Shown here piece by piece: positions 18,327-42,162 of a DNA stretch of 42,162 nucleotides. Position numbers and translations under genes: made by a program. The notes under the pieces are model-generated. The model did not search any database, had not been told where the DNA came from, and saw only the letters and a list, made by a program, of their open reading frames with translations. The DNA comes from an uncultured Synergistales bacterium (GTDB lineage Bacteria > Synergistota > Synergistia > Synergistales > Aminobacteriaceae): assembly GCA_905233725.1 (NCBI GenBank), contig CAJOEM010000032.1:1-42162 (forward strand), written 5' to 3'. Position 1 is the first letter of the stretch; each line of letters starts with the position of its first letter.

Positions 18327-20778
18327 TTATTTCGCTCTCTTGAATATCAAAGCTGCTGCACAAACTGCGAGACCGAAAATTCCTAATCCGGAATTACAGC
18401 CACCGCCACCACCACTGCTTGAGCTTTTAGGACTATCCTCGTCATCGTAATATGGCTCATCATAAACGTAGATATACAAATCCTGAGTATTACTTCCGGC
18501 AGAATTTTCAGCTTTCACAGTGAAGGAATAATAATCCTCGTAGTCATAGACGTAGCCTGAAATAACGCCAGTATTCGGATCCAACGTGAGATTATCTGGA
18601 AGATAGCCGGACGTAATTGACCACGTGATGTTTTCACCAGTTGCGAGTAAAGTCTCGTAATAATATTCGCCGTAATAAGCATATTCGAGATCTTCTGTCA
18701 TTATGACTGGAGCTGTGAGAGTTTGTCCCTGACCGCCTTCGCCGCCTTGACCGCCTTGAGCTGGGTTGATCACGATGCTGAGAGCTTGATCACCGCTTGC
18801 TGTTTGGGTCATTGCTCTGACTTTGAAATTTGAAGTGCCGGCAGTTGTCGGTTTCCCTGAAATTTTGCCATTATTCGCGAGGGTTAATCCATCTGGAAGT
18901 TTTCCGGATAAAATCGACCATGTTACACCAGCTGTGTCAGACTCAAGAGTTGCGTTATAATCCTGATTGACAGTTCCGTTGGGAAGATTTCTGGTTGTGA
19001 TCGTGACTATGCCTCCCTGAGTGGGATTACTTGAGCCGCCACCAGTTCCGCCACTTGAGCCAGTTATCGTAATTGTGAAAGTTTTTGACGCAGTAATTGT
19101 CGTGTCACTTGTTGCGGAAGCGATTATCGTGAACTGAGCAGCCGTTACAACTTCAGATGGAAGACCTGAAATTCTGCCGTTTGTCAGTGACAATCCAGAG
19201 GGAAGTTTGCTACCTTGAGCGAGTGACCATGTAACATTTCTAGCGCCGGTTGCAGAAAGTTGCTGATTATACTGCTGACCAATAACTCCTGCAGGGAGTG
19301 CTGACTCGGTATTTATGACAAGTCTTACAGTGAGAGAAAAATCTTTAGTTGCCGGAGTTGTTCCTGAAAGAGCCTGAATTGTGAATGTATATTTTCCGGC
19401 AGTTGTCGGCGTTCCTGAGATTTTACCGGTTGAAGAATCAAGATTCAGTCCATCTGGGAGCGAAGTTCCGCCCGTGAGAGACCATGTAACACTTGTTCCA
19501 GAAGCGGCATCAGTTTTGAGTTCAACGCTGTAATTAAATCCGGCATCAGCAGAATCAAGATTCGAATCGGTCATGATTGAGATTGGCGGCGTAAGTTTGT
19601 AGCAACCTTGTTCACCCGGAACTCCCTGAGCATTAATTCCGATTCCGTGCTCAGCATTAGCGTAACCGTTGTTTTCAATCGTGTAAGACGCGCTGTCAAG
19701 TTTTCCGATAATTCCGCCTTTATTCGTTGCGTCACTGGAGACTATTGCGTATGAAATATTATCCTGAACAGTTGCATTATTCATAACACCGACAATTCCA
19801 CCAATTCCCTCGGCTGAATTATTATCCGACATGACAGTCACGAGACCGGAAACGTCGCAGCTTTTGAGAACCGTAGTCTCGCCAACACGTCCAGCGATTC
19901 CACCAGCAACACTATTAGAATCTATTACTGAACTTGCGTTGTTATTTGCTGTAACGTGATTGTTCTCCAAATTTCCGCCTGAGATATAGCCAACGATTCC
20001 GCCTGCGTAAGAAACGCTCTCTAGTGTTCCCGAGAACGTACAATTTTTGATTGCCTCAAAGTCAGCGATTTGAGCATAACCAACAATCCCTCCAACAACC
20101 TTCAACTTTGCAATTATCAATAGTTCCGCCGGTCATTATCGCAACGATACCGCCAAAGTCTTCTCTATTACTATTATAACCAGAAGGCGCATCTATAGTC
20201 CCGCTCATTGTACAGTTCTTTATTTCTCCGTTAGTCATACTTTGAACGATACCTCCGATATAACCATCATCATTCCAATATCTACTGAACGACATAGTTC
20301 CGGAAAAGCTACAGTTATCAATAGTTCCATTATTCAGCTTATTCGCAATTCCAGCGGAGTATCTCCCATTAAGGTTGCCGCTAACTTTGAGATTTTTCAC
20401 AACATAATCCGAAGCTGAGACTGTTCCGAACAAACTCGCGATACCGCCACCTCTTGAAATGTTGACGTGTATCGAAAGATTATTGCCGTCAAAATGTCCT
20501 GAGAACGGGTGCGAATCAGTTCCAATCGCTTCCCAATTCGTGGTTTGAGAAATGTTCAGATCTGCTCCGAGTTTGTAATAAAAGTCTGCTGATTCAGTTC
20601 CTTTATTAACTCTGTCGCGGAGCATCACCAGATCAGCGTTTGTGTCAATGATGTACGGATCAGTCGCAGAGCCTGAGTGTCCTTCATCATAGTATTCCGC
20701 CCATGAACACGAAGTCATGGAAACAACGAGCGCTAAAACTACAAAAAGTGCTGAAATTTTCCTGTTCGTAAAAATCAT
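18327..20778 (-). pseudogene. Surface protein with GLUG repeats and Ig-like domains, split by a frameshift
   Basis: Two overlapping frames form one gene. The first (20778 to about 20100) has AGGAGG ten bases before its ATG, a signal peptide (MIFTNRKISALFVVLALVVS, possible lipobox MTSC), and GLUG-type repeats such as IGGIVQSMTNGEIKNC. It ends in the wrong frame soon after TIDNCKVEG. The second frame continues VVGGIVGYAQIADFE with more GLUG repeats, then about four putative Ig (He_PIG) domains, each with a LPDGLTLD...GKISGTP motif. It closes with SSGGGGGCNSG, a hydrophobic helix and KRAK, a Synergist-CTERM-like signal. One extra base near 20095-20100 explains the break. A sequencing error is possible; otherwise the gene is inactivated. 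Confidence 0.8.
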
Positions 20779-21029
20779 AAAAAACAAACCTCCTGAATTT
20801 TAGAATTTAAGATTTCCCATTAACGCGATTTCCCAAAAAATTCTTACTATTCTTATTAACTAAGGAGGTCGTTCCTTTTTGTGAGCGAATGTTAAGTCTG
20901 GATTATTTGCGCACGAACGATGAAAGACAACGCAAGCCTCTTCTCTTCTCTCAAATTATTAAGACTAGCACAAGATTGCATTTTTTTTCACCGTCCTTTT
21001 CCGTAATATTACATCATTTACAGATTATA
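20779..21029. other. Intergenic stretch between surface-protein gene and rsmA
   Basis: No gene supported. It should hold the surface-protein promoter (minus strand) and the 3' end of the rsmA transcript. A short AAGGA/TCCTT inverted repeat near 20862-20877 with a T run on the plus strand is too weak to call a terminator. Confidence 0.4.
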
Positions 21030-40842: not shown

Positions 40843-40871
40843 AGCCGCTGCGAATTTTTTGCGAGAAATTT

Positions 40872-40880
40872 TGCTATAAT
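40872..40880 (+). promoter_or_regulatory. Extended -10 promoter of the phase-variable acyltransferase
   Basis: TGCTATAAT (40872-40880) is a perfect extended -10. Transcription should start near 40887, about 33 bases before the TTG start. The same element occurs at 41987-41995 before the second gene. Confidence 0.6.
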
Positions 40881-40888
40881 TCGTGAGG

Positions 40889-40940
40889 GAAAATAATCGT
40901 CAAAAGTGAGGTTGACAAATTGAGAAATAATATAATTAGA
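40889..40940 (+). repeat. 52-base cassette leader, copy 1
   Basis: This block is identical to 42004-42055. It contains the ribosome site (GAGG 40908-40911), the TTG start (40920) and codons 1-7, and ends where the pentanucleotide array begins. Upstream of it the two copies stay similar through the extended -10. Confidence 0.95.
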
Positions 40941-42011
40941 ACAGAACAGAACAGAACAGAACAGAACAGAACAGAACAGAACAGAACAGAACAGAACAGA
41001 GATTCTAATTTTGAGCTGCTGAGAATTTTCGCAATGTTTATGATTATCGCGCATCATTTTTCGGTTCACGGTGGATTTGAGTTTCCGAAGAGTTTGAGCG
41101 ATATTACGATTAACAGATTATGGACGCAATTTATCTTGATGGGTGGCGGTCTTGGCAATGATATATTCGTGCTGATTTCGGGATATTTTCTTGTGAAGTC
41201 TCGTGCGATGAAAGTTTCGAAAGTGTTTGATCTATGGCTGAGAATGTTTTTCTACTCGGTCGGAATATTTGCGATTTTCACGTTGACGGGCCTTGAGAAA
41301 TTTGTGTGGCTGGATTTTGTGAAGAGTTTGTTGCCGCCGATTACTGGCTGGTGGTTTGCGAGTTGTTATTTCCTGCTATATTTGCTGCACCCGTACATGA
41401 ACATCACGCTGAACAGTCTCACGAAATCCGAGTACAAGAGAATGCTGATAATCTTCGGGATTTGCTGGTGTATAATTCCGACGTTTTTGAAATCGAATTT
41501 TCAGAGCAGTAATTTGATCTGGTTCATGTATCTTTACAGTTTAGCAGGCTACGTGAGATTATGGTGTGAAGATCTCTGCGGGAAAAAATATTTTATGTTT
41601 GCGTTGCTGTTGACGGTTGTAAATTTTGCCGGAGCTGTGTTGTTGGATTTGTTGGGTTTGAAATTTCCGTTTTTAGGGCGACCGGTTATCGCTTTGTATT
41701 ATTACGCTAATCAGCATTTATTGACGATTTCGATTGCGTTTTGCTTGTTCGTTGGCTTCAGGAGTTTGCGTGTGAAATATAGCGCTTTGATTAACACGAT
41801 AGCTTCTGCAACGTTCGGAGTATATTTGATTCACGATAACGCCTTTGTGAGACGATTTCTCTGGCTGAAACTTTTCAGGAACGCGGAATTTTTCGGGAGT
41901 AGATATTTTATTGCGTATTCCTTGGCTGCGATTTTGATTGTGTACGCTGTGTGCGTGATGATTGAGTTACTGCGTATGAGAATTTTTGCTATAATTTGTA
42001 CGAGAAAATAA
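40920..42011 (+). CDS. Phase-variable acyltransferase 3 family membrane protein
   Basis: A 363-residue membrane protein of the acyltransferase-3 family, which O-acylates envelope or secreted glycans. Residues 8-27 are four copies of TEQNR, encoded by 12 tandem ACAGA. The acyltransferase domain begins at SNFELLRIFAMFMIIAHHF, with the catalytic-type His, and runs through about ten helices to FGVYLIHDNAFVRRF. GAGG stands eight bases before the TTG. As sequenced the frame is open. One unit more leads to a stop eight codons into the new frame; one unit fewer leads to a stop three codons in. The last codons contain the promoter of the next gene. Glycan substrate unknown. Confidence 0.88.
   Translation: MRNNIIRTEQNRTEQNRTEQNRTEQNRDSNFELLRIFAMFMIIAHHFSVHGGFEFPKSLSDITINRLWTQFILMGGGLGNDIFVLISGYFLVKSRAMKVSKVFDLWLRMFFYSVGIFAIFTLTGLEKFVWLDFVKSLLPPITGWWFASCYFLLYLLHPYMNITLNSLTKSEYKRMLIIFGICWCIIPTFLKSNFQSSNLIWFMYLYSLAGYVRLWCEDLCGKKYFMFALLLTVVNFAGAVLLDLLGLKFPFLGRPVIALYYYANQHLLTISIAFCLFVGFRSLRVKYSALINTIASATFGVYLIHDNAFVRRFLWLKLFRNAEFFGSRYFIAYSLAAILIVYAVCVMIELLRMRIFAIICTRK
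40941..41000 (+). repeat. Pentanucleotide repeat (ACAGA)12
   Basis: Twelve perfect tandem copies of ACAGA (60 bases) lie within codons 8-27 of the acyltransferase gene. The unit length is not a multiple of three, so gain or loss of one unit shifts the frame. Confidence 0.98.
41987..41995 (+). promoter_or_regulatory. Extended -10 promoter inside the end of the acyltransferase gene
   Basis: TGCTATAAT matches the element at 40872-40880. Here it forms part of the last codons of the acyltransferase (RIFAIICTRK) and points to the second cassette gene. Confidence 0.55.
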
Positions 42012-42055
42012 TCGTCAAAAGTGAGGTTGACAAATTGAGAAATAATATAATTAGA
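42004..42055 (+). repeat. 52-base cassette leader, copy 2
   Basis: Identical to 40889-40940 over all 52 bases, including ribosome site (GAGG 42023-42026), TTG start (42035) and codons 1-7. It begins eight bases before the end of the acyltransferase gene. Confidence 0.95.
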
Positions 42056-42162
42056 GCAGAGCAGAGCAGAGCAGAGCAGAGCAGAGCAGAGCAGAGCAGA
42101 GCAGATTCTTATCTTTTAACAAGTGAACAATCCGAACGTCTGAGAATCTTGAAACTTTGGCT
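42035..42162 (+). CDS. Second phase-variable gene, N-terminus only (cut by window edge)
   Basis: From TTG 42035 the frame is open to the window edge (42 codons). It starts MRNNIIR as in the previous gene, then has three copies of AEQSR encoded by GCAGA repeats, then ADSYLLTSEQSERLRILKLW. The LRILKLW block sits where the acyltransferase has LRIFAMF, so another acyltransferase-type membrane protein is plausible but unproven. Gain of one or two GCAGA units leads to a stop within five or seven codons, so this copy too reads as on. Confidence 0.7.
   Translation, partial: MRNNIIRAEQSRAEQSRAEQSRADSYLLTSEQSERLRILKLW
42056..42105 (+). repeat. Pentanucleotide repeat (GCAGA)10
   Basis: Ten perfect copies of GCAGA (50 bases) directly follow the shared 52-base leader. 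The unit differs from the first array (ACAGA) at one position in every copy. Confidence 0.98.

Follow-up and report, generated by a model that had tools for sequence, protein, structure and literature searches.

Why do two adjacent genes with unrelated coding sequences begin with the same leader, each of them joined to a different short tandem repeat? The question is raised by the last part of the window, i.e. the whole stretch of 42,162 nucleotides analysed here, which is all of contig C32 in the genome (G000) of an uncultured Synergistales bacterium. Our answer is that the two copies in the window and the related cassettes of the genus very probably represent a reusable leader for slipped-strand phase variation, a reading for which there are no data on expression or on switching within a strain. 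The preliminary description of this DNA had claimed that a 52-base block with a ribosome site, a start codon and seven codons is identical at two places, and this block is indeed the longest exact repeat between them, a match by chance being excluded. It contains GTGAGG, TTGACA, TTG and TATAATTAGA, and carries a Shine-Dalgarno (SD) site, a TTG start and seven codons. Upstream of the block the similarity is weaker and fades gradually to about 40862, and it does reach up through the extended -10 sequence TGCTATAAT, as had been stated; an alignment of the copies gave 91% over 96 nt. The coordinates of the features are collected in Table 1.

Table 1. Features of the two leader copies in the window and of the further copies in the same genome (contigs C4, C13, C15 and C16)
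Feature	Position	Strand	Basis
Extended -10 TGCTATAAT, likely promoter of copy 1 leader	40872..40880	+	sequence
52-nt leader block, copy 1 (SD, TTGACA, TTG start, first 7 codons)	40889..40940	+	longest exact repeat
Shine-Dalgarno-like GTGAGG, copy 1	40906..40911	+	sequence
TTGACA, conserved leader core, -35-like	40912..40917	+	kept in 93/96 genus leaders
ORF 1, TTG start, 363 aa, Acyl_transf_3 membrane acyltransferase, in frame (ON)	40920..42011	+	Pfam E=1.4e-22, residues 30-348
TATAAT adjoining tract, 13 nt from TTGACA (most relatives 16-17 nt)	40931..40936	+	leader comparison
Tandem repeat (AGAAC)12.6, copy 1, period 5, 100% match	40938..41000	+	Tandem Repeats Finder
Extended -10 TGCTATAAT of copy 2, within 3' end of ORF 1	41987..41995	+	sequence
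52-nt leader block, copy 2	42004..42055	+	exact repeat
ORF 2, TTG start, in frame (ON), truncated by contig end	42035..42162	+	reading frame
Tandem repeat (AGAGC)10.6, copy 2, 100% match	42053..42105	+	Tandem Repeats Finder
C4 leader, AATCAGG tract, ahead of glycosyltransferase 8 gene	about 59940	-	leader model; Pfam E=1.4e-26
C16 leader and AATCAGG tract	at contig end		leader model
C13 AGCAC tract	near contig end		leader model
C15 ACAGA tract, beside N-gap	upstream of LRR secreted protein with own SD		

The other points made about the pair hold as well. Each gene has its own five-base tract, the sequences 3' of the two tracts show no resemblance and do not align, and the reading frames of the window confirm that both ORFs are open from their TTG, with the other two frames stopping within a few codons past the tract. 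Two tests were accordingly met in the window, namely a perfect tandem repeat within the 5' coding region whose unit is not a multiple of three, and one frame ON with the remaining frames stopped early. The second gene is cut off 57 nt past its tract, and neither a Pfam match for the 42 aa present nor a relative in the genus (queries of 18-42 aa) was found. Since this is a short-read MAG and the identical 52-nt block could permit a wrong join, it is uncertain which tract belongs to which leader copy. Rfam searches at the leaders yielded one tRNA and otherwise only weak matches under the family cut-offs, none of them relevant. Elsewhere in the window, on the minus strand at 18327-20787, a single secreted repeat protein seems to have been divided by a frame change into two ORFs that overlap in different frames.

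The occurrence of the leader was followed in 43 genomes of this genus of uncultured gut Synergistaceae (the named records are goat, deer and other gut Synergistaceae MAGs, one labelled Fretibacterium sp.); the Synergistaceae data comprise draft genomes only, one per species. A tract-first pattern that contains no leader sequence, CAGANCAGANCAGANCAGA, found NCAGA tracts in 19 of the 43 genomes, and about 35 of 37 distinct tracts were preceded by TTGACA or TTGACT and, after a further 16 or 17 nt, by a -10-like hexamer that ends just before the tract. These counts are lower bounds because many contigs end within the tract. A leader model (R1, 38 positions, sequence only, with the tract excluded), built from 36 leaders and used at a cut-off of E<=0.01, matched at about 180 places in 36 of the 43 genus genomes, with up to 14 leader matches per genome; in the rest of the family, sampled by 40 genomes of 19 genera, it matched in one. 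The model was trained on tract-adjacent leaders, and its weak matches include ordinary promoters; one of them, at C2:78375 of the genome to which the window belongs, is that of a tRNA and was rejected as a cassette. Among 60 fetched matches, the tract had at least 3 units in 47, 2-2.9 units in eight (some of them cut by the contig end) and only remnants in three, and was missing in two. A repeat of 5, 7 or 8 bases with at least two units thus stands behind 55 of the 60, compared with 2.2% of random positions in the same DNA. The units include GACCA, GACAC, GACAA, GTCAA, GAACA, AGAGC, GACTCAG, GAGCAAC, GACAGCA, ACACAGC, GAACCAC and GACGCAGG; the repeats are therefore not only of five bases, as described for the window. 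By the results of this leader-first survey, the same leader with a different repeat and a different gene is the rule in the genus.

The start signals recur together with the leader. An SD-like sequence is present in 91 of 96 genus cassettes (13.5 in shuffles) and an upstream extended -10, TGnTAnnnT, in 45 of 96 (9 in shuffles), lying 16-51 nt, mostly 22-31 nt, before TTGACA; as predicted elements, both fit ordinary expression of the ORF. Two observations are less favourable. In some leaders an ATG lies 14-15 nt past the start of TTGACA, which is far for the SD and counts against the model, and in five (L085, L109, L110, L313 and L314) the leader seems to follow directly on a terminator belonging to the gene before it, and no clear upstream promoter is seen, which is not explained by phase variation.

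The window's own genome (1.87 Mb, 57 contigs) has at least six tracts, two in the window and the others in C4, C13, C15 and C16. The supposition that copies were restricted to the window pair proved wrong, as the leader model found others with different units. In the C15 copy the stops of the three frames lie at +42, +85 and +101, and the start of the LRR gene (+189) is preceded by a hairpin with seven T after it, so that this copy probably represents a version with a separate leader ORF, as far as its sequence can tell. Two observations were made besides. In the glycosyltransferase 8 gene that follows the C4 cassette, a frame change interrupts the coding sequence after 217 codons (L453, about 59275), and an Acyl_transf_3 gene with an internal TAG (L268, C3:69621-70616) begins with ATGAGAACAGAACAGAA, a mini ACAGA tract, and is perhaps a decayed cassette.

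Pfam searches of 61 post-tract proteins gave Acyl_transf_3 (10), GT2 (9), methyltransferases (about 6), GT61 (5) and polysaccharide pyruvyl transferase (4), as well as Stealth, LicD, sugar transferase, UDP-glucose dehydrogenase and others; the genes behind the leaders are thus predicted to be mostly surface-glycan enzymes. The expectation that a search of this genome and its relatives would turn up more copies, with short tandem repeats and ahead of many envelope genes, was fulfilled genus-wide. Frames are mixed: counted from the first start codon of the leader, 19 of 59 genes are in frame, one third, as expected for random frames. Tract lengths and ON/OFF counts remain approximate because MAG assemblies often end inside the tracts. 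A post-tract NTG as the true start codon was rejected, being often out of frame with the gene body. One GACAA-tract cassette (L304, G022:C17:14534+) stands about 140 nt before a lepA (EF4)-like housekeeping gene.

A second promoter-like element adjoins the tract. TTGACA is kept in 93 of the 96 genus leaders; in 83 it is separated from a -10-like hexamer by 16 or 17 nt, and in 88 this hexamer ends 0-3 nt ahead of the tract. Its variants (CATAAT, TATAAT, TACACT, TATCCT, TACGAT, TAGAGT) differ as sigma70 -10 elements do, and the encoded residues differ too. In a set of 95 non-Synergistaceae loci, chosen solely for TTGACA and a tract, TANNNT lies 16-18 nt from TTGACA in 58 (5.8 in shuffled sequences), and 41 of these form a sharp peak at 17; when an SD is present upstream of TTGACA, the share is 46 of 56. 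TTGACA-N16-18-TANNNT would then be a sigma70-like promoter superimposed on the start of the ORF in most leaders, in Clostridia too, although its use is unknown. The window did not meet the sigma70 test (hexamers 16-18 nt apart); with a spacer of 13 nt in both copies, its tract-abutting promoter is degenerate, not standard. RNA from such a promoter could not make protein, since it would start inside the tract without a start codon, and hence the promoter may act on the tract itself. SD, TTGACA, start codon, TANNNT and tract might form one composite cis-element in Synergistota and Clostridia, in which the -10 ends 0-3 nt ahead of the tract irrespective of the repeat unit and the promoter tunes the mutation rate, for example by raising slippage through local melting or R-loops. 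We consider this unlikely as matters stand, but a tract-abutting promoter in two phyla makes it a testable question whether cells tune repeat mutability by local transcription.

One leader appears to have three outputs, namely fusion to the gene, a short leader ORF before a separate gene, and leader-peptide attenuation. Fusion is found in the window and in most copies. In one locus (L113) the leader ORF overlaps the start of a separate gene (ATGA), and an arrangement of this type suggests translational coupling. It could be supposed that this holds throughout, the tract lying in a short leader ORF whose frame decides whether a terminator is opened (attenuation) or the start of a separate gene is reached (coupling). 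Such control is likely for a minority of the cassettes in the genus (L302, L304, L307, L308, L324, L335 and L343) and probable for the C15 copy, and its mechanism has been shown experimentally for the GCAGA-based, attenuation-like phase variation of Streptococcus gallolyticus pil1/pil3 (Danne et al. 2014, PMC3894217), where the promoter mapped upstream of pil1 is TTGTGT/AATAAT (PMC3894217). It also applies to many Clostridia loci. When GTDB genomes were searched for TTGACA together with a tract, at least 118 stretches outside the genus matched; among the matches listed, those from Lachnospiraceae and other Clostridia have a leader ORF that a strong terminator separates from the following gene, which often encodes a secreted protein, and their three frames end just past the tract, at the 5' arm or within the hairpin. 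The pil1-type test (a separate leader ORF with a terminator between) is met for these loci, and with this matching three-stop and terminator design the pil1 mechanism appears much wider than S. gallolyticus. Pentamer leader-peptide attenuators of the pil1 design, mostly at secreted-protein genes, were noted within L120-L237 (e.g. L175, L180, L195, L168, L150 and L192). ORF 1 of the window does not meet the test: its tract runs on in frame into the acyltransferase domain, with no stop, terminator or second start between, and we hold leader-peptide control to be quite improbable there.

How the leader came to stand before different genes is a separate matter, on which the preliminary description spoke of a mobile or copied module. 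That it was copied is supported. Near-identical leaders precede different genes not only in the window but also in G015 (L100/L101) and in G030, where TTGACAAAATCAAAATGGCCACCATAATT is common to L305, L338 and L348 and is followed by GACAA, ACACAGC and GACTCAG, respectively. Leader similarity is slightly higher within genomes than between them (0.60 vs 0.57, permutation p=0.003). At one locus of the sister species G037 and G038, the upstream DNA is 93% identical and the leader region 97%, the tracts have 3 and 15.6 units, and the gene bodies are 51% identical as proteins, which as a pattern fits an exchange of the part behind the leader or a conversion of the leader. Variation of repeat number between close relatives is thereby seen, for this one locus. 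Mobility, on the other hand, has not been shown. Near-identical leaders ahead of unrelated genes in one genome could be expected if a transposase or recombinase moved the block as a small mobile element or mobile promoter, but no transposase was found among the window ORFs, no terminal inverted repeats surround the two copies, and the gradual fading upstream leaves no fixed outer boundary; we regard such an element as very improbable. Simple tandem duplication of one acyltransferase gene, with later divergence of the coding parts, would suit two copies lying head to tail, but it is scarcely credible when the leader is 100% identical and the post-tract sequences cannot be aligned, and as a full explanation it is refuted by the genus survey, where the leader type precedes many gene families in other species; a block confined to one tandem duplication, with downstream genes as similar as the leaders, had been named beforehand as refuting a module and was not seen. 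An assembly artefact, with unrelated pieces joined at the 52-nt repeat, deserves almost no credence despite a MAG whose contig ends 57 nt past the second tract and a genus whose contigs often end in tracts, as the window copies are not alike in their tracts or in the DNA preceding the 52 nt, and dozens of other assemblies show the pattern independently.

We therefore return to slipped-strand phase variation by a shared leader, which would work as follows. Transcription would start from the upstream extended -10 promoter, the SD would be bound by the ribosome, and translation would begin at the ATG or TTG, a few codons ahead of the tract. Units would be gained or lost at replication and, because units of 5, 7 or 8 bases are not multiples of three, one tract length in three would be ON and the others would stop soon after the tract (OFF). 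Homologous recombination or gene conversion, acting across leader and tract, would probably have carried the leader to many genes, the recipients being mostly putative glycosyltransferases, acyltransferases and other surface-glycan enzymes. While the layout, its spread in the genus, the mixed frames and the different tract lengths at one locus of sister species were observed directly, it is by inference that we speak of slippage, of a change in expression, of gene conversion and of a benefit from varying the surface in defence against phages, host or neighbours. Viral contigs as the main carrier were rejected, as only 20 pattern matches were obtained in 2.9 million, most of them with unrelated leaders. 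In viral contigs and one Alphaproteobacteria MAG (L424, L426, L435, L440, L171), an AGAGC tract stands in another coding context, common to them, which may be a phase-variable phage gene.

Simple-sequence-repeat (SSR) contingency loci in 5' coding regions include Neisseria opa and Haemophilus lic. Streptococcus suis ModS likewise undergoes 5' coding phase variation with GAGCA repeats (PMC8125046, PMC6265453). Streptococcus genomes (L363, L364, L365) had AGAAC or GAGCA tracts right past the ATG of a type III DNA methyltransferase-like (ModS-like) gene, two of them with TTGACA-17-TACCAT just ahead of the tract. A literature search, without preprints and with few subscription papers, found no phase variation in Synergistota and no shared leader of this sort. 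The kind of switch (SSR phase variation, GCAGA attenuation) is known, and a module shared and re-used among genes in this way is apparently undescribed. In the literature searched, Synergistota would thus pass from no described repeat-based phase variation to a rich case in which each leader may switch a surface-sugar gene. It is suggested that phase variability can spread as a module, a standard leader being joined to new genes and new repeat units, and such modular spread would help to explain the origin of contingency loci. Like S. gallolyticus pil1/pil3, the leader has GCAGA-type pentamers after an SD and a start codon, and the frame sets the outcome; unlike pil1, the window genes are fused to the tract without a premature terminator. 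Like ModS and other 5' coding SSR loci, it carries a frame-shifting repeat a few codons past the start, ON in one of three frames, at surface or regulatory genes; unlike them, the genus has one leader with start signals common to many unrelated genes, and this leader stays constant while dozens of different repeat units of 5, 7 or 8 nt occur behind it.
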